This document shows, in pieces, positions 482 through 48,270 of a stretch of DNA of 64,000 bases. Within the stretch, counting starts at the first letter, position 1; each line of letters begins with the position of its first letter. The position numbers were made by a program, and so were the translations under genes. The DNA is taken from contig NZ_JAPQNT010000005.1 in assembly GCF_028867965.1 (NCBI RefSeq), positions 124,001 through 188,000 of the forward strand, in the 5' to 3' direction. This stretch comes from Flavobacterium sp. SUN046. Lineage in GTDB: Bacteria > Bacteroidota > Bacteroidia > Flavobacteriales > Flavobacteriaceae. Under the pieces are notes generated by a model, which saw only the letters and a list, made by a program, of their open reading frames with translations, did not search any database and was not told the DNA's origin.

Positions 482-1060
482 TTAAGGGTTAGGAACTGCA
501 ACTAATTTTGCTTCTTCGGGTGTAATATCATTAACAATTGCATAAGTCGGAACGTTACAAATTGCCATTTCATCTAATATGTCAACTAAATTTTTATAGT
601 TTGACTTTTTAGTAGGTTTAATAATTACAATTAAACCGTCTCCTTTTTTACTGTTTGGTTTAGCAGCACAATATTCAGCAACAGATTTTACTCTTTTTAG
701 GATTTCAACACGAATTCCATCTTTTCCATAAACTGCATCTGTTGGTTTACCATTTGGTTCTGGTGCCTCTAGCAATCCATGAAACCACTTGATTTTATTG
801 TCGGCACCAAGCATGATAGTCATTGTTCTCTTCTGATCAACTTTAATGTTTGTATCATCTTTAAGAGTGTCATTCTTATCAGGCAAGCCCAAATTCATAG
901 ACTGTGGTTTAGATAACGAAGTGGTCAACATAAAGAACGTAATCAAAAGGAATGCCAAATCTACCATTGCAGTTAAATCTACTTTAGAGTTTTGTTTTTT
1001 ACTTCTAACCTTTCCGCTGCCTTTTTTGCCACCGCCATCGCCGGTATTTAATTCAGCCAT
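482..1060 (-). CDS. exbD: ExbD/TolR-family proton channel subunit (second copy)
   Basis: This 192-residue protein has a Lys-rich cytoplasmic N-terminus, one membrane helix (about residues 30-50) starting LTAMVDLAFLLITFFML, and a periplasmic domain. Asp34 at the start of the helix matches the conserved protonatable Asp of ExbD/TolR. In the family, ExbD with ExbB uses the proton motive force to drive TonB. The gene lies between the other exbD (17-base gap) and tonB (11-base gap). Its periplasmic domain is poorly similar by eye to the other copy, so the two are diverged paralogues rather than a recent duplication. Two ExbD genes in one TonB cluster are common in Flavobacteriaceae. Confidence 0.93.
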   Translation of the reverse strand: MAELNTGDGGGKKGSGKVRSKKQNSKVDLTAMVDLAFLLITFFMLTTSLSKPQSMNLGLPDKNDTLKDDTNIKVDQKRTMTIMLGADNKIKWFHGLLEAPEPNGKPTDAVYGKDGIRVEILKRVKSVAEYCAAKPNSKKGDGLIVIIKPTKKSNYKNLVDILDEMAICNVPTYAIVNDITPEEAKLVAVPNP

Positions 1061-1077
1061 TTTATTTTTTTTATAAA

Positions 1078-1701
1078 TTAATAGTCTTTACCTCTTAGAC
1101 CTGTAACTAAATCAAACGTGTTGATGTCTTGGTCTTGTAAAATATCCATAATTTTTTTAATTTTTGGATATCCTAATTTAGAATCGCCTTTGATAGCGAA
1201 GTTAAGTTCTTTGTCATTTCCAATTTCAATATTGGCTTGACGCGCCTTGTAAATCCAATCTTTCAATTGGTGGTTTATAGAGTCGAATGGAACGCCAGTT
1301 TGAGTACCTGGTTTATTTCTTTCTGAACTCTTCATCTTAATTATTGCACTTAGACTTTCTATTGGAACACCAAAACTTTCCATTAAAGCGAATTGTTTTT
1401 TCTCTTCATCAGAAAAGGCAACTTTGTATTCATTACCCATCAACTCAAGAGTTTTCTCACGAAGTTCTCTTCCTTTGATGTCAAAAAATACATTTCCTTC
1501 TCCTTTTCCTACAGTTATAGTAACTAATCCATTTTCATTGATTTTGTTTTTCACTGTAGAACTTGGTGTGTCAACATTTATTGGTTCAGGCACTTTAGCA
1601 GTAGCCGTCAAAATAAAGAAAGTAAGCAAAAGGAAAGCTACATCACACATTGCTGTCATGTCGATTGATGATGCTTTTTTAGACGTTTTTATTTTAGCCA
1701 T
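1078..1701 (-). CDS. exbD: ExbD/TolR-family proton channel subunit (first copy)
   Basis: This 207-residue protein has a short basic N-terminus, one membrane helix (about residues 15-34) with the motif IDMTAMCDVAFLLLTFFIL, and a periplasmic domain. Asp20 is the expected proton-carrying residue. It follows exbB by 43 bases and precedes the second exbD by 17, so the group reads as one operon. The protein should sit in the inner membrane as part of the ExbB-ExbD motor. Which of the two ExbD paralogues pairs with TonB cannot be told from sequence. Confidence 0.93.
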   Translation of the reverse strand: MAKIKTSKKASSIDMTAMCDVAFLLLTFFILTATAKVPEPINVDTPSSTVKNKINENGLVTITVGKGEGNVFFDIKGRELREKTLELMGNEYKVAFSDEEKKQFALMESFGVPIESLSAIIKMKSSERNKPGTQTGVPFDSINHQLKDWIYKARQANIEIGNDKELNFAIKGDSKLGYPKIKKIMDILQDQDINTFDLVTGLRGKDY

Positions 1702-1744
1702 AATGGTTCTTTTACTTAATTATTTTGTATAGAAATCTATACTA

Positions 1745-2563
1745 TTATTTTAAACTTCCTTTGAATCTTCTGTATGTATTAACGATTGAAGTACCTGCTT
1801 CATCAATAGAATAAGTCAAAGTATCAATTTTAGAAGTAAAGAAATTGTACATAATAATTGCTAATGCAGAAGTAGAAATACCAGTTGCAGTATTAATAAG
1901 TGCTTCAGAAATACTATTAGACAGTGCGCTTTGATCTGGTGTTCCTGCAGTTGCTAAAGCACCAAACGCTTTAATCATACCTGTTACTGTTCCTAACAAA
2001 CCTGCAAGAGTACCTAATGATACTAATGTAGAAATAATAGTCATGTGTTTTTCTAACATTGGCATTTCAAGAGAAGTAGCCTCTTCGATTTCTTTGTGAA
2101 TTGTTTCTGCAGCTTCTTCGCTGTTGAAACCTTCTTTTTTAACTTCTTGATATTTAACAAGCGCTGCTCTAATTGCGTTTGCAACAGATCCTTGTTGTTT
2201 GTCACAAGCATTGATAGCTTCTTCAATGTTGCCTGAAGCGATATCACTTTGCACTTTTTTCATGAATTTTTCTAAGTTATCTTTACCAGCTGCTTTAGAA
2301 ATAACCATAAAACGCTCAACAGAAAAAACAATTACCATTAAAAGACATCCTAATAATACTGGTACGATTGGACCACCTTTGTAAACCATTGCTAAATAAT
2401 TGTCTGGTAGTGGATGACCTGTATTTACTCCACCTTCAAAATTTGAACCAGCACCCATGATAAATCTCCAAATTAGAAATCCAACAAAAATACATGCTAC
2501 GATTACAATACCAGAGAACATTCCTCCTCCGTTAGACCCATTTTCTTTTTTTGCGTTTGCCAT
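1745..2563 (-). CDS. exbB: MotA/TolQ/ExbB proton channel family protein
   Basis: The 272-residue product has hydrophobic segments at about residues 15-37, 68-86, 172-198 and 222-242. The last two carry the family's Gly/Thr-rich stretches (STLVSLGTLAGLLGTVTGM and INTATGISTSALAI). ExbB forms the pentameric membrane channel of the TonB energizing complex, with ExbD in its pore. The extra N-terminal helix before the conserved core is typical of Bacteroidota ExbB proteins. It is the first gene of the leftward operon and has a good Bacteroidota-type promoter about 120 bases upstream. Confidence 0.94.
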   Translation of the reverse strand: MANAKKENGSNGGGMFSGIVIVACIFVGFLIWRFIMGAGSNFEGGVNTGHPLPDNYLAMVYKGGPIVPVLLGCLLMVIVFSVERFMVISKAAGKDNLEKFMKKVQSDIASGNIEEAINACDKQQGSVANAIRAALVKYQEVKKEGFNSEEAAETIHKEIEEATSLEMPMLEKHMTIISTLVSLGTLAGLLGTVTGMIKAFGALATAGTPDQSALSNSISEALINTATGISTSALAIIMYNFFTSKIDTLTYSIDEAGTSIVNTYRRFKGSLK

Positions 2564-2927
2564 TTTTTAAAATTTTAATAGTTTTTAATAATTTATAAGT
2601 TTTAGTTGTAAATAAACTTGAATAGGAGCAAATTTAATTTTTTAGTTCAAATAAAAAAACTTTTTTCAATATTAATATATTTCAAATTTACGAAAACGAT
2701 TTAGTTAATTTTGCAAATTTTTTAAACGTCAATAAATTAGTATATTAAAAGCTTCTCCTAATATCTTTAAACGTAAAGTTAAACAAAATAGTATATCAAT
2801 ACTTGAAAAAAGGTAAGAAAAAAATGTAAAATTGATTATTTTTAACATTCTTTTTTATAAAATCAATATTCAAAAAAATACTATCTTGCGGTAGTTTAAC
2901 TTTTATTTTATTCAAATTAAAAATATA
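2564..2927. other. Divergent intergenic region between exbB and the HerA-like gene
   Basis: This 364-base gap is extremely AT-rich and separates two divergent genes. It holds the exbB promoter (2683-2717). On the plus strand near the HerA-like gene only a weak -7-like TATCTTG is visible at about 2884. I see no ORF of note, no tRNA and no clear terminator or repeat. Confidence 0.6.
2683..2717 (-). promoter_or_regulatory. Promoter of the exbB-exbD-exbD-tonB operon
   Basis: On the minus strand the -7 element TAAATTTG (2690-2683) matches the Bacteroidota consensus TAnnTTTG exactly. A TTG (2716-2714) lies 23 bases upstream, the upper end of the normal spacing. The predicted transcript would have a leader of about 110 bases before exbB. 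Confidence 0.6.
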
Positions 2928-4445
2928 ATGAGCACAAAAGAAACCTTTATTCAATTTATAAATGACGGATTTACATCGAAAGGAGAAAGCATATTATTAG
3001 GTGCAGCTATGCTCGATGGAGAAGCTTTAGGTGAAACTCAAGTGAAAATTCCATTAAAAACATTAAACCGTCACGGATTAATTGCTGGTGCAACCGGAAC
3101 AGGAAAAACCAAAACTATTCAAGTGCTTTCTGAGCAACTTTCGTCATTTGGAATCCCTGTATTAATGATGGATATTAAAGGTGATTTTTCAGGTATTGCA
3201 AAACCTGGAGAAGAAAAACCTTTTATTACTGAACGTCATTCTAAAATAAACATTCCTTATGCTATTAGCGCATTTCCTGTAGAATTGATGACGCTTTCAA
3301 CACAAGACGGCGTTAGAATGAGAGCAACAGTTTCAGAATTCGGACCTGTTTTATTTTCAAGAATTTTGAATTTGAATGAAGTACAAGCTGGAGTTATGTC
3401 AGTAATATTCAAATATTGCGACGATAACAAAATGCCAATTTTGGATTTGAAAGACATAAAAAAAGTATTAAATTATATAACTGAAGAAGGAAAAGAAGAG
3501 ATTGCGGAGAATTACGGAAAAATTTCAACGGCTACAACTGGAACTATTTTGAGAAACATCATAGGTTTAGAACAACAAGGCGGTGATTTCTTTTTTGGTG
3601 AAAAATCTTTCGAGATTGATGATTTAATGCGCATTGACGAAAACGGAAAAGGCTACGTAAATATTTTAAGACTAACTGACATTCAAGACAAACCAATGCT
3701 GTTCTCTACTTTTATGTTAAGTTTATTGGCAGAAATTTACCATCAAATGCCAGAAAAAGGTGATGTTGAGCAACCAGAATTGGTGATTTTTATTGATGAA
3801 GCGCATTTAATATTTGATGAAGCAAGCAAAGTGTTGTTAGATCAGATTGAAACTATCATAAAATTAATACGTTCTAAAGGTGTTGGTGTTTACTTTGTAA
3901 CACAAAATCCGATGGATATTCCTAAAGGTGTTTTGGCTCAATTAGGTTTGAAAATTCAACATGCGTTGCGAGCTTTTACAGCTAATGACAGACAAGCAAT
4001 AAAGCAAACGGCTGACAATTATCCGACATCTGATTATTACAAAACCGATGAAATTTTAACTTCGCTCGGAATTGGTGAAGCTTTGGTAACCGCATTAAAT
4101 GAAAAAGGAATTCCAACGCCATTAGCAGCAACAATGCTTCGTGCGCCGGAAAGTAGAATGGATATTTTGGTAGATTCAGAGATTGCAGAAATTAATGCAA
4201 ATTCTAAATTAGTGAAAAAATATTCAGAAGAATTAGACCGTGAAAGCGCTTATGAAATTTTGAATAAAAAAATTGAAGACGCTAATAAACAAGCCGAAGA
4301 AGCAACTCCAACCGAAGAAGAAAAACAAGAAAGTAAAGAACCAAGTACGGCTAGTGTTGTTGGCAAATCGGTATTGAAAGTTGTTACAAGTGCAAGTTTT
4401 ATTCGTGGTGCTTTTGGAATATTGATGAAAATGTTTAGAAAATAG
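2928..4445 (+). CDS. HerA-like ATPase, DUF853 / helicase HerA C-terminal domain family
   Basis: This 505-residue protein has a Walker A motif GATGTGKT at residues 54-61 and a Walker B motif LVIFIDEAHLIF with the Asp-Glu pair at residues 290-291. The fold and length fit the HerA/FtsK-superfamily ATPases of the DUF853 group, which are related to DNA-translocating helicases but whose cellular role is not firmly established. The C-terminal roughly 80 residues are Glu/Lys-rich and probably coiled, followed by a short hydrophobic end. No NurA-type nuclease is next to it, so a HerA-NurA end-resection pair is not indicated. The next gene starts 3 bases after its stop. Confidence 0.85.
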   Translation: MSTKETFIQFINDGFTSKGESILLGAAMLDGEALGETQVKIPLKTLNRHGLIAGATGTGKTKTIQVLSEQLSSFGIPVLMMDIKGDFSGIAKPGEEKPFITERHSKINIPYAISAFPVELMTLSTQDGVRMRATVSEFGPVLFSRILNLNEVQAGVMSVIFKYCDDNKMPILDLKDIKKVLNYITEEGKEEIAENYGKISTATTGTILRNIIGLEQQGGDFFFGEKSFEIDDLMRIDENGKGYVNILRLTDIQDKPMLFSTFMLSLLAEIYHQMPEKGDVEQPELVIFIDEAHLIFDEASKVLLDQIETIIKLIRSKGVGVYFVTQNPMDIPKGVLAQLGLKIQHALRAFTANDRQAIKQTADNYPTSDYYKTDEILTSLGIGEALVTALNEKGIPTPLAATMLRAPESRMDILVDSEIAEINANSKLVKKYSEELDRESAYEILNKKIEDANKQAEEATPTEEEKQESKEPSTASVVGKSVLKVVTSASFIRGAFGILMKMFRK

Positions 4446-45295: not shown

Positions 45296-46588
45296 TTATA
45301 CTTTTTGGATTGATTTTATAGTTTGAAATACTTCTTTCAAATCTGCTTTTAAGTCATCAATGTCTTCTAAACCAACAGACAAACGAATTAAGTCTTTGGT
45401 AACGCCAGTTGCTTCTTGTTCCGCATCTGACAATTGTTGATGAGTTGTACTTGCTGGATGAATTATCAATGATTTGGTATCACCAATATTTGCTAAAAGC
45501 GAAAATAATTTGGTTCCGTCAGCGACTCTTTTAGCAGCTTCAAATCCGCCATGTAATCCAAAAGTTACTATACCACTTTTTCCATTTGGCAGGTATTGAT
45601 CAGCAAGTTGTTTGTATTTAGAAGTTTCTAATCCTGGATAGTTTACCCAAGCCACTTCTTCTTGAGATTGCAACCATTTAGCTAATTCCAATGCATTTTC
45701 AGAATGTTTTTTTATTCTGATTTCCAATGTTTCCAACCCCTGAATGGTTTGAAAAGCGTTAAACGGACTTAATGCTGCACCAAAATCGCGCAATCCTTCA
45801 ATTCGAACTTTAGCAATAAATGAGGCTGCGCCTAATGCTTCGTAGTATTTTAATTCGTGATAACCTGCTGATGGCTCTGTAAATTCAGGAAACTTTCCGT
45901 TACTCCAATCAAAATTTCCAGCGTCAATAATTGCGCCTCCAAGTGAAGTTCCGTTTCCTGTAATGTATTTGGTTAAAGAGTGAATTACAATATCTGCACC
46001 ATGCGCAATTGGATTTAACAAATAAGGAGTTGCAACGGTGTTATCAACTATGAAAGGTACTTTGAATGCTTTTGCTTGAGTTGAAATAGCTTTCAAATCT
46101 AGAACATCTAATTTGGGATTTCCTAAACTTTCTGCGAAGAATGCTCTGGTATTTTCTTGTGCTGCTTGGGTAAAATTTTCTGGATTTGATGGATCAACAA
46201 ATGTAGTTGTGATTCCTAATCGTGGCAAAGTTACTTTTAACAAATTGTAAGTTCCGCCATACAAGCTATTAGAAGCCACAATGTGATCACCAGCTTTTAG
46301 CAAAACCAAAAGTGTTGTAGCAATTGCGGAAGTTCCTGAAGCTGTAACAACTGCACCTATTCCGCCTTCTAATTTTGCTAGGCGTTGTTCTAGAATGTCG
46401 TTGGTTGGATTGTTTAATCGAGTGTAAATAAATCCAGCTTCAGCAAGACCAAAGAGATTGGCTGCATGATCGGAATTATTGAATACATACGAAGTTGTTT
46501 GATAAATTGGAACTGCTCTTGTTCCTGCGTTTTTAGTAACGTCGTGTCCTGCGTGCAATGCGTTTGTTGCGAATTTTTGTGTGCTCAT
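45296..46588 (-). CDS. metY: O-acetylhomoserine sulfhydrylase / aminocarboxypropyltransferase
   Basis: This 430-residue PLP enzyme of the Cys/Met-metabolism family makes homocysteine from O-acetylhomoserine and sulfide. The PLP-binding Lys207 lies in HSLTKYITGNGTSLGG, with YTRLNNPTNDILEQRLA (about 55-71), ASGTSAI and SLYGGTYNLL near residue 110. The approximately 430-residue length and the insertion after SLGG (IIDAGNFDWSNGKFPEFTEP) separate MetY from MetB/MetC enzymes. Two tandem Met-rich leader peptides with terminators lie upstream. Confidence 0.96.
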   Translation of the reverse strand: MSTQKFATNALHAGHDVTKNAGTRAVPIYQTTSYVFNNSDHAANLFGLAEAGFIYTRLNNPTNDILEQRLAKLEGGIGAVVTASGTSAIATTLLVLLKAGDHIVASNSLYGGTYNLLKVTLPRLGITTTFVDPSNPENFTQAAQENTRAFFAESLGNPKLDVLDLKAISTQAKAFKVPFIVDNTVATPYLLNPIAHGADIVIHSLTKYITGNGTSLGGAIIDAGNFDWSNGKFPEFTEPSAGYHELKYYEALGAASFIAKVRIEGLRDFGAALSPFNAFQTIQGLETLEIRIKKHSENALELAKWLQSQEEVAWVNYPGLETSKYKQLADQYLPNGKSGIVTFGLHGGFEAAKRVADGTKLFSLLANIGDTKSLIIHPASTTHQQLSDAEQEATGVTKDLIRLSVGLEDIDDLKADLKEVFQTIKSIQKV

Positions 46589-46633
46589 GATAATTGATTT
46601 TAGATATTAGAATTAAGATTTTAAGATTTTTGT

Positions 46634-46658
46634 TGAGACTCTGATATAAATTCAGAGT
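46634..46658. repeat. CTGAA-type palindrome next to attenuator B
   Basis: ACTCTGATATAAATTCAGAGT forms a 7-base-pair hairpin immediately after the T-run of attenuator B in the direction of transcription. Related copies lie at 46829-46850, 46877-46898 and 48271-48293. Confidence 0.7.
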
Positions 46659-46698
46659 AAAAAAAAAGTCCCTTTGGATGGCTTACCAAAGGGACTTT
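46659..46698 (-). terminator. Attenuator terminator B before metY
   Basis: A perfect 13-base-pair stem (AAAGTCCCTTTGG with its complement) with an 8-base loop is followed on the minus strand by nine T residues. It lies between leader peptide B and the metY start and has no complete gene upstream. The 5' arm plus loop includes TTTGGTAA (46690-46683), complementary to TTACCAAA in leader B. Confidence 0.9.
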
Positions 46699-46719
46699 AA
46701 GAATAGTTATTAAAACTAT

Positions 46720-46815
46720 TTAGGTCTTCCAAATTTGGTAATAGCAAATGCTCATGCAACACATTGTGCGCATCATCATACAAGACATCATCATATTTTT
46801 TGCTATTAATTTCAT
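46720..46815 (-). CDS. Met-rich leader peptide B of metY
   Basis: A 31-codon frame starts at ATG 46815 and ends at TAA 46722-46720. It contains nine Met residues: the initiator, MMM at 8-10, MMM at 13-15, Met18 and Met21, plus four Cys. It is followed by terminator B and then metY. The sequence TTACCAAA (46741-46734), after the Met codons, can pair over 8 bases with the terminator 5' arm and loop. Ribosomes stalled for lack of charged Met-tRNA would expose it and prevent termination. A stand-alone metal-binding role for the Met/Cys-rich peptide is a less likely alternative. Confidence 0.85.
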   Translation of the reverse strand: MKLIAKNMMMSCMMMRTMCCMSICYYQIWKT

Positions 46816-46828
46816 TTTGACTTTTATT

Positions 46829-46850
46829 TAATCTGAATTTGTTTTAGATT
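46829..46850. repeat. CTGAA-type palindrome upstream of leader B
   Basis: AATCTGAATTTGTTTTAGATT is an imperfect member of the same palindrome family as 46877-46898, here without an adjacent terminator. Confidence 0.5.
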
Positions 46851-46876
46851 CTTTTTATTAATTTGATTTTTTTATG

Positions 46877-46898
46877 AGATGCTGAAATAAATTCAGCA
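46877..46898. repeat. CTGAA-type palindrome next to attenuator A
   Basis: ATGCTGAAATAAATTCAGCAT is an 8-base-pair hairpin with a 5-base loop directly after the T-run of attenuator A in the direction of transcription. Confidence 0.75.
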
Positions 46899-46899
46899 T

Positions 46900-46928
46900 A
46901 AAAAAAACCTCTGCGGTTTGCAGAGGTT
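46900..46928 (-). terminator. Attenuator terminator A before metY
   Basis: A perfect 9-base-pair stem (AACCTCTGC with GCAGAGGTT) and a 5-base loop are followed by eight T residues on the minus strand. It follows leader peptide A. Its CTCTGC (46925-46920) is complementary to GCAGAG at the end of leader A. Confidence 0.9.
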
Positions 46929-46967
46929 TAATTGAATATATTTTAAAAATTTAAAATTATGCAATAG

Positions 46968-47024
46968 TTATCTCTGCGGATTTTTCCACATCATACGACA
47001 CATATTGCAAATCATTAATTTCAT
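46968..47024 (-). CDS. Met-rich leader peptide A of metY
   Basis: An 18-codon frame starts at ATG 47024 and ends at TAA 46970-46968. It encodes MKLMICNMCRMMWKNPQR, with Met at 4, 8, 11 and 12. It starts with the same MKL as leader B. The codons for Pro16-Arg18 contain GCAGAG (46977-46972), which pairs with the 5' arm of terminator A, so stalling at the Met codons would favour antitermination. Leader A is transcribed before leader B, giving two attenuators in series. Confidence 0.85.
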   Translation of the reverse strand: MKLMICNMCRMMWKNPQR

Positions 47025-47046
47025 TTTTTCTTTTTATTTTATGGAG

Positions 47047-47077
47047 CAAACTTCTGAACAATTTTTGAATTGACCAA
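47047..47077 (-). promoter_or_regulatory. Promoter of the metY leader transcript
   Basis: On the minus strand TTG (47077-47075) and GAAGTTTG (47054-47047, one mismatch to TAnnTTTG) are 20 bases apart. The start site would be near 47040, about 16 bases before leader A. Confidence 0.5.
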
Positions 47078-47121
47078 ATGAATTTTTAAAATTTAACATT
47101 TGATTAAACTAAAAAAGAAAA

Positions 47122-47156
47122 TAAAAAAGCCCATTATCATAATGAAAATGGGCTTT
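47122..47156 (-). terminator. Intrinsic terminator after the T9SS protein gene
   Basis: AAAGCCCATT and AATGGGCTTT form a 10-base-pair stem 20 bases beyond the stop, with a T-run on the minus strand. Confidence 0.85.
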
Positions 47157-47175
47157 AAGGAAAAATAAATTATTT

Positions 47176-48063
47176 TTATTTTTTTATGATTTTAGAAGTT
47201 CCAACTCCTAAATCAGACTGTACTTTTACAAAATATACTCCGGCAGTTAAGTCAGAAATATTAATTTGAGCCGTTTCTGAACCAGAAATACTAGTTTCGT
47301 TTACAATTCTTCCGTTGATGTCCATAACCTGAACTTTTTCTAACGAAATACCATTTTTAGCTGTTATATTGAAAACATCATTAACTGGATTTGGCTGAAT
47401 TGAAAAGTTACTTGCAAAGAATGATTGAGTACTTGCTAGTGGTCTATTTACTGAAAAACTATCAATACCAATATAGTCAGAATTATTTCCTGATGGACCA
47501 CCATCAGTTACATAATATCTAAAAGCTATTTTACAATCAGTTGGCCCAGTTAATCCTGAAATGGTGTAAGAATAAAGTGTCCAAGTGTGTGGATAATCAT
47601 CAAGTAAATCAGGATTTACAGCAATTGCCAAGTTAGTATAATCACCTACACTACTTACATTGTTTGGATCAGATGAGAAAGCACCATTGGTACTTAATCG
47701 TAATTCTAGACTATCAGGATATAAATTTGCACCAACATTGGTTGTTCTAGTGTAAAATGATATAACATCTCCGTTTTGCAGAGAAAGTGAAGGAGTTATC
47801 AACCAATTACTTATAACACCAGTACCAGCAGTACTATTATAATTAACACCAATGTAAGAAGTAGCTGCGCCACTGTAAGCTGCAAAAGGTGTAGAACCCT
47901 GAAACCAACTAGTTGAACCTGTTGGGCTACTTAAATTTAGTATAGTCCAACCTGCTCCACTTAAAGTTGTAATATCGTCAAATCCTTGAGATGCAATAAC
48001 TTGTGCATTGGATGTAATCGATACTAGAATTAATGCGAAAGATAAGAGTAATTTTTTCATCAT
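47176..48063 (-). CDS. T9SS-exported protein with choice-of-anchor J (cleaved adhesin) domain
   Basis: This 295-residue protein has a signal peptide (MMKKLLLSFALILVSITSNAQ), a central beta-sandwich (about 23-208) beginning ASQGFDDITTLSGAGWTILNLSSPTGSTSWFQG and containing a PDSLELRLSTNG segment, typical of the choice-of-anchor J or cleaved-adhesin family, and a type A sorting domain (about 220-295; NFSIQPNPVNDVFNI ... LTAGVYFVKV). It should be a cell-surface protein exported by type IX secretion; its ligand is unknown. It lies between two methionine genes but has its own terminator, so no metabolic link is implied. Confidence 0.88.
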   Translation of the reverse strand: MMKKLLLSFALILVSITSNAQVIASQGFDDITTLSGAGWTILNLSSPTGSTSWFQGSTPFAAYSGAATSYIGVNYNSTAGTGVISNWLITPSLSLQNGDVISFYTRTTNVGANLYPDSLELRLSTNGAFSSDPNNVSSVGDYTNLAIAVNPDLLDDYPHTWTLYSYTISGLTGPTDCKIAFRYYVTDGGPSGNNSDYIGIDSFSVNRPLASTQSFFASNFSIQPNPVNDVFNITAKNGISLEKVQVMDINGRIVNETSISGSETAQINISDLTAGVYFVKVQSDLGVGTSKIIKK

Positions 48064-48149: not shown

Positions 48150-48160
48150 CAAAATAATTG

Positions 48161-48209
48161 GAGGAAAAATTTGAACTGATTGCAACCTCATAAAAAAATG
48201 CTAAAGCAG
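48161..48209 (+). ncRNA. Probable SAM-II riboswitch in the metK leader
   Basis: P1 is GAGG (48161-48164) with CCTC (48186-48189). The loop contains CTGATTGCAA and the 3' part contains ATAAAAAAATGCTAAAGCAG. The conserved SAM-II blocks ATTGCAA, ATAAAA and GCTAAA are present in order, and the pseudoknot helix CTG (48176-48178) with CAG (48207-48209) can form in place of the pairs in the known metX aptamer. Just downstream CTTTAGC (48218-48224) can pair with GCTAAAG (48200-48206), a possible alternative hairpin. The element starts a few bases after the predicted promoter and precedes the SAM synthetase gene. P1 is short, so a covariance search is needed. Confidence 0.72.
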
Positions 48210-48270
48210 AAACTCTCCTTTAGCTCTTATTTGCAATTTTCTTTTTTACTTCTTCAAAATTAATATTAAC

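Follow-up and report, generated by a model that had tools for sequence, protein, structure and literature searches.

In the window, the 64,000-nucleotide stretch of the Flavobacterium sp. SUN046 genome analysed here, the gene metY stands on the minus strand ahead of a metX-like gene and hom (table 1). Upstream of metY lie two short Met-rich reading frames, leaders A and B, each followed by a predicted intrinsic terminator and each containing a sequence able to pair with the 5' arm of that terminator. We refer to each leader with its terminator as a unit, and number its pairing segments so that 1:2, 2:3 and 3:4 denote the anti-antiterminator, antiterminator and terminator helices. An earlier note, made from the sequence alone, had described two such leaders with their terminators and pairings. 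All of these are real, and GCAGAG with CTCTGC in unit A and TTACCAAA with TTTGGTAA in unit B lie where it had placed them. Its counts of Met codons are right as numbers, but the start codon was counted for leader B and left out for leader A. It mentioned neither the Cys codons of the leaders nor the 1:2 helices, and it missed that the genome contains another such pair of units elsewhere.

The leader region is flanked by a SAM-I riboswitch before metH and a SAM-II riboswitch with metK, so that, counting the candidate leaders, three types of RNA sensor for one pathway occupy about 6 kb. No S-box aptamer (RF00162) matches before metY itself. In a search of the Rfam families, T-box and Bacteroid-trp included, none of the 15 matches up to an E value of 1 attained its threshold, the highest scoring 28.5 bits against 65.

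Table 1. Features of the leader region and of the neighbouring genes in the window.
Feature	Position	Strand	Remarks
SAM-II riboswitch with metK	48155-48214	+	far side of the leader region
predicted sigma-A promoter	47078-47047	-	TTTG at 47078-47075, 20 nt, then GAAGTTTG at 47054-47047
predicted transcription start	near 47042	-	about 18 nt before leader A
leader peptide A, MKLMICNMCRMMWKNPQR	47024-46968 (including stop)	-	18 codons; 4 Met, start not counted; 2 Cys
unit A segment 1, TGCAATA	47009-47003	-	pairs with TATTGCA; predicted anti-antiterminator; 73% of cells paired
unit A segment 2, GCAGAG	46977-46972	-	predicted antiterminator with terminator 5' arm CTCTGC (46925-46920)
unit A segment 2', TATTGCA	46966-46960	-	partner of segment 1
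unit A predicted intrinsic terminator, AAACCTCTGC-AAACC-GCAGAGGTTT	46929-46905	-	10 pairs, then T-run
leader peptide B, MKLIAKNMMMSCMMMRTMCCMSICYYQIWKT	46815-46720 (including stop)	-	31 codons; 9 Met with the start included; MMM twice; 4 Cys
unit B segment 1, AATAGCAAA	46807-46799	-	pairs with TTTGCTATT (46748-46740)
unit B segment 2, TTACCAAA	46741-46734	-	predicted antiterminator with TTTGGTAA (46690-46683)
unit B predicted intrinsic terminator, AAAGTCCCTTTGGTAAGCCATCCAAAGGGACTTT	46698-46665	-	13 pairs, then T-run
metY, O-acetylhomoserine sulfhydrylase	46588-45296	-	first gene controlled in the model; TIGR01326, 631 bits, above cut-off
metX-like homoserine O-acetyltransferase	45153-44158	-	TIGR01392, E 6e-52, below curated cut-off
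homoserine dehydrogenase (hom)	44171-43074	-	NF006959, E 3e-110, C-terminal part of model, below cut-off
SAM-I riboswitch, then N-terminal part of metH	42947-42843	-	only SAM-I match of the window

Could this arrangement have arisen by chance? The earlier note thought it unlikely, and the shuffles agree. Among 2000 dinucleotide shuffles of positions 46659-47077, none contained two small frames (12-60 amino acids) with at least seven and at least six Met plus Cys codons beyond the start, where the observed pair has 12 and six; a single frame with at least six arose in 2.55% of them. Terminator-like sites number three on the two strands of positions 46300-47500, against 0.5 ± 0.8 in shuffles. 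Two of these are terminators A and B, and the third lies on the plus strand within metY.

If the two units lie in series, where would transcription begin? We took the consensus of the promoter box and its placement at -12 to -5 as given in PMC9723704. The box of the window, GAAGTTTG, is one mismatch from the strict form TAnnTTTG, which occurs in 25 of 57 unit A upstreams against 2.7 in shuffles. Its core, A..TTTG, is present in 56 of these 57 upstreams (70 nt each; 7.8 ± 2.6 in shuffles), in most cases 24-37 nt ahead of the leader ATG. In the spacers between A and B the core occurs at chance level, in 3 of 41 against 3.2 in shuffles. A single transcript running through both units is most likely.

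Are the proposed helices maintained as the sequences diverge? For unit A we aligned 57 dereplicated sequences and for unit B 61, near-copies of at least 88% identity having been removed. L088 is missing from the 57 because its A unit had been overwritten by unit B. Seven units outside both terminator classes, among them the first unit of L240 and that of L241, were also left out. In unit A the 3:4, 2:3 and 1:2 helices are 97, 90 and 73% paired, in unit B 99, 89 and 64%, and in neither unit did any of 500 partner shuffles reach the observed value for any of the three, counts which are not probabilities because the shuffles keep no phylogeny. When unit B was reduced to 18 rows, the 3:4, 2:3 and 1:2 helices were reached by 0, 1 and 33 of 500 shuffles, with 2:3 at 88% and 1:2 at 56% paired. 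The antiterminator of unit A changes jointly on its two sides, as GCAGGG:CCCTGC, GCAGCG:CGCTGC, TGTGGG:CCCACA and GGGAG:CTCCC. Its 1:2 helix, TGCAATA:TATTGCA, has 25 two-sided cells and appears as AACAATA:TATTGTT in L063. The small GGA:TCC hairpin of unit A and an additional 2':3' helix, both spotted by eye, did not exceed shuffles (59 and 57 of 500). A hairpin between segments 2 and 3 of unit B is weak, at 46% paired, and was reached by 1 of 500 shuffles with 61 rows and by 99 with 18. For only 27 of the 57 A units and 28 of the 61 B units does the best single helix rank above the 95th percentile of mono-shuffled leaders; the corresponding comparison with the terminators of other species is a weak one because terminators are alike across species.

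The Met codons keep to one reading frame. Start codons excluded, the 57 A leaders have 192 ATG triplets in frame, with 7 and 6 in the two alternative frames, and the 61 B leaders have 372, with 12 and 12, counts that are partly conditioned and inflated since the leader caller selects on Met and Cys content. The GCAGAG motif behaves otherwise: it lies in frame 0 in 20 leaders and in frame 2 in 16, with peptide ends that differ accordingly (PQR against SAE), and we conclude that what is conserved here is the RNA, not the peptide. Codon positions within the leaders reveal no third-position excess, so that support for selection on the peptide is limited to Met and Cys content and frame. The earlier note had looked to relatives for covarying antiterminators, and for loss of the Met codons or frames beneath conserved hairpins as the outcome that would count against it. 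Across Flavobacterium codons and hairpins are kept together, and the antiterminator pairs covary in both units. At the level of sequence, its reading of the locus as ribosome-stalling attenuation is thus supported.

How might a ribosome alter the folding of these leaders? We assumed a stalled ribosome to cover 12 nt past the start of the A-site codon. Folded as far as segment 3 and without a ribosome, unit A of the window adopts the 1:2 fold, with 0.2 expected 2:3 pairs. The GCAGAG:CTCTGC helix is predicted to form once the ribosome stalls at Met 8, 11 or 12, but not when it stands at the stop codon. A ribosome stalled in mid-leader, compared with one at the stop codon, raises the number of expected 2:3 pairs by at least two in 56 of the 57 A units and 60 of the 61 B units; the B unit of L193 changes in the wrong direction. 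Because the mask of a ribosome at the stop codon takes away segment 2 from the outset, the control with shuffled spacers matters. There the stalled 2:3 pairs fall from 7.8 to 2.6 in unit A and from 12.6 to 6.0 in unit B, the natural value lying above all ten shuffles in 48 of 57 A and 39 of 61 B units. Relative to the state without a ribosome, a gain of at least one 2:3 pair on stalling is limited to 39 of the 57 A units and 37 of the 61 B units. In unit B of the window 9.7 of 12.6 such pairs persist without a ribosome, and the 1:2 helix does not clearly prevent antitermination there. Judged by position, the final Cys codon in leader B would be too near segment 2 to act by this geometry.

We searched metY loci of species genomes with covariance models R1 (unit A) and R2 (unit B) at E values up to 0.001. 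The models were built from 22 and 18 sequences, and many of these come from loci later searched, which match by construction. The RNAalifold structure of R1 is only the three-pair GGA:TCC hairpin, for which reason R1 acts as a sequence profile. At least one unit is present at all of the best 80 of 563 confirmed loci. The two-unit layout that the earlier note had expected in relatives is found at 47 of these 80, with A and B within about 1.1 kb. In 18 others B lies beside metY, with A at a distance of 3.6-3.8 kb upstream. A alone is present at 13 loci and B alone at two; one of the latter, L054, is on a contig with only 862 nt before metY. Among the genomes with a distant A we opened one, L311 (G063), where positions 756-4093 carry unit A, the gene for a TonB-dependent receptor of 948 amino acids, unit B and metY. 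The receptor, a transporter of the outer membrane, may share the sulfur signal.

What precedes metY where the leaders are lacking? A wider set of 216 non-redundant upstreams was scanned by script; it derives from 242 by removal of those identical in the last 300 nt and of L239, with an upstream under 100 nt. In the genus a leader with terminator precedes metY in 141 of 145 upstreams, neither leader nor S-box pattern in four, and the S-box pattern in none. This set of 145 comprises 83 upstreams assigned by genome and 62 counted in by closeness of metY, some of which are titled only Flavobacteriales or Bacteroidetes or bear impossible titles, those of Nitrotoga and Bifidobacterium bins. In other genera of the family (64 upstreams) 57 have the S-box pattern and seven a leader, which brings the family as a whole to 148 leaders, 57 S-box patterns and four with neither among 209 upstreams. 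Seven upstreams from other families include two leaders, one S-box and four with neither. At none of the 216 loci do a leader and the S-box pattern occur together. The Rfam model confirmed SAM-I before metY in all 20 leader-less loci of the family that were scanned. A metY protein tree of 66 rows requires a minimum of six changes in the leader label, five of them forced by well supported branches, and leader-bearing rows fall within the family in four places, two of these inside S-box groups. Such scatter points to exchange between leader and SAM-I, or transfer of the leader region, more than once.

Several individual loci depart from the common pattern. L241 (G423, another family) has a Met leader, MNYLNMYMRMLMPRLT, about 169 to 60 nt before metY, with a terminator of very different sequence (GCCCCGCTCTT), and this leader may be of independent origin. 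L240 (G397, likewise another family) has two Met-containing leaders and two terminators of different sequence 525 to 110 nt before metY. In L246 (G295), some 320 to 95 nt before metY, an S-box-like RNA is followed by a small frame ending in SMRMRMPMSCFSYMCA. The leaders of L187-L194, one genus genome set, are very rich in Met with few Cys. After unit A, about 122 to 60 nt before metY, a conserved small frame encoding MKIAIYNPRRCCRMCS (one E variant), with no terminator found, occurs in L069, L071, L076, L078, L080, L081, L085-L087, L102, L103 and L108; it is perhaps a remnant or an altered unit B.

Units of this kind are not confined to metY. The same genome contains a second A and B pair (G000:C31:39723-40010, L262), with leaders MNLTVCKVCMMICGYPQRIVIA and MKFINKMMMCCMMCQCAPNSYYQK, ahead of the sulfate assimilation operon cysH-cysD-cysN-cysE-cysK-cobA-cysJ-cysI, in which the names cysE and cysJ rest partly on scores below curated cut-offs. 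Five of the weaker R1 and R2 matches in this genome (C31:132321, C32:192988, C14:11880, C23:129479 and C33:6593) were inspected and set aside, being terminators without a comparable Met/Cys leader. Across the genus, R1 at E values up to 1e-4 finds unit A in 97 of 150 genomes. In 20 stretches chosen among these matches, units precede metX-hom, OsmC-hom, two Cys/Met PLP genes, cysE-cysK, cysH operons, metY and metH. The last case is L312 (G072), where tandem Met-rich leaders lie before metH at about 1181-1452 of the reversed stretch and no S-box pattern was seen before that gene; in the window and other opened genomes metH is preceded by an S-box. A cysH match is present in 80 genomes of the genus; among the best 30 of these loci, 9 have leaders before cysH.

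The share of Cys among Met plus Cys codons is higher in cys-operon than in met leaders in all eight genomes compared (G009, which has cys leaders, is outside this comparison), with a Wilcoxon p of 0.008 that is optimistic because the genomes are related and few. Examples are 0.70 against 0.00 and 0.73 against 0.17, and the smallest difference is 0.03. The mean share is 0.61 for 14 cys leaders and 0.41 for 218 metY leaders, the metY set not being dereplicated. The earlier note had named Met as the signal. The Met codons are indeed conserved, but that reading is too narrow: since Cys codons are systematic and weigh more before cysteine operons, we widen the signal to Met plus Cys.

We conclude that two ribosome-mediated transcription attenuators very probably stand in series on one transcript before metY. 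Leader translation, stalling, the efficiencies of termination and the response to starvation are parts of this model that we infer. RNA polymerase would start about 18 nt before leader A. With charged Met-tRNA and Cys-tRNA plentiful, a ribosome would reach the leader stop codon and cover segment 2, allowing the terminator to form; termination at unit A, repeated at unit B, would keep metY-metX-hom off. When Met or Cys runs short, the ribosome would stall on Met or Cys codons and cover segment 1. Segment 2, left free, would pair with the 5' arm of the terminator, and polymerase would read on. For full expression the polymerase would have to pass both terminators. Other sulfur operons would be served by the same RNA scaffold, its codons shifted toward Cys before sulfate assimilation and cysteine genes and toward Met before methionine genes. 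On balance we lean towards a modular sulfur amino acid regulon in Flavobacterium, in which a serial two-attenuator chassis, opened twice, was copied before met and cys operons and, in one lineage, metH, was retuned from Met to Cys by codon swaps and was exchanged several times with SAM riboswitches, sensing at the same gene thereby shifting from SAM to charged tRNA.

Might a metabolite riboswitch, for SAM or another sulfur ligand, control both terminators, the short frames being there by chance? SAM-I does precede metY in relatives and metH in the window. However, no Rfam family reaches its gathering score between positions 46590 and 47175, none of the 150 upstreams with a leader shows the S-box pattern, and the Met codons stay in one frame while the pairing motif shifts frame; we regard this as the least probable of the explanations considered. 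Scarcely better placed, and very improbable in our estimate, is the proposal that the leaders encode working small peptides, metal binders or trans-acting products for instance, beside ordinary terminators. In its favour, small peptides rich in Met and Cys can bind metals, and there is a precedent for action in trans: a leader peptide of that kind is reported for trp attenuation in Sinorhizobium (PMC7298713). The peptide ends nevertheless vary as the pairing motif changes frame, Met-rich variants poor in Cys occur, as in L187-L194, the codon content tracks the downstream operon, and the helices covary.

It is less far-fetched, though still unlikely, that one unit alone senses amino acids and that the other is a relic setting a basal level. 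The loci with a single unit (13 with A only and two with B only among the best 80 of 563) are in keeping with this, as is the small Cys-containing frame at the position of B in 12 of the 13 A-only loci, where the scan found no terminator. Against it, A and B of the window each possess the codons, the antiterminator and the terminator, and the helices of either unit covary within the genus. We retain two attenuators acting in series as the preferred reading.

How does this arrangement compare with systems already described in Bacteroidota and elsewhere? A table row in PMC2864571 lists the Bacteroid-trp motif (RF01692), and PMC9723704 speaks of strong clues for leader peptide attenuation before amino acid biosynthesis operons of F. 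psychrophilum. Like these, the metY leaders are structured leaders in Bacteroidota, but no Rfam family, Bacteroid-trp included, matches them at threshold. The word 'methionine' is absent from the main text of PMC9723704, and a metY entry in its supplementary Table S7 is possible. Small frames in 5' UTRs of B. thetaiotaomicron are called reminiscent of leader peptides in PMC7366714, and the authors of PMC2965389 knew, before their Firmicutes case, of no leader peptide system outside Proteobacteria and Actinobacteria. Leaders of actinobacterial cys operons (PMC1262725) likewise carry runs of Cys codons in a leader frame before cysteine genes, but in that account they have no conserved terminator hairpin, whereas each Flavobacterium leader has a predicted intrinsic terminator. 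The mgtCBR leader of Salmonella, described in PMC3641672 as carrying tandem attenuators, is also long and contains two short frames whose translation is expected to set the stem-loops and transcription of the operon; unlike metY, that operon concerns virulence and Mg2+ transport, not amino acid biosynthesis. Our literature search, incomplete and without supplements or most subscription papers, yielded no Met leader at metY and no tandem amino acid leader. Leader-peptide attenuation is thus known as a kind, and the tandem layout and the Met/Cys target appear to be new.

Were the model to hold, ribosome loading without a Shine-Dalgarno sequence could be tested where the 5' UTR is predicted to measure about 18 nt and the ribosome must load early enough to control the polymerase; Bacteroidota ribosomes are described as lacking Shine-Dalgarno recognition (PMC9976891). 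Methionine, and Met plus Cys jointly, would join the signals of leader-peptide attenuation with intrinsic terminators. Among the sulfur operons there would be a set of naturally occurring attenuators that differ in specificity through exchanged codons while the RNA scaffold stays the same. At metY, moreover, a riboswitch for a metabolite and a sensor that relies on translation would have replaced one another, a clear-cut instance at a single gene: SAM-I (S-box) precedes metY in leader-less relatives just as the leaders do elsewhere, but it binds SAM directly and needs no reading frame.

The trp, his, thr, leu and phe operons of enterobacteria carry the classical leader-peptide transcription attenuators. 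As in those, a short frame rich in cognate codons is found at metY; an intrinsic terminator, predicted, conserved and covarying, lies between leader and first biosynthetic gene; and mutually exclusive 1:2, 2:3 and 3:4 helices include an antiterminator that, judging from covariation and predicted folds, excludes the terminator. The best reading of these sequences is that the tandem metY leaders would work in the manner of trp/his-type attenuation, with a 1:2 helix predicted to restore termination in unit A of the window and less plainly so in unit B. They differ from the classical attenuators in their presumed reading of Met plus Cys, in comprising two complete serial units, in belonging to a Bacteroidota host and in being exchanged with a SAM riboswitch.
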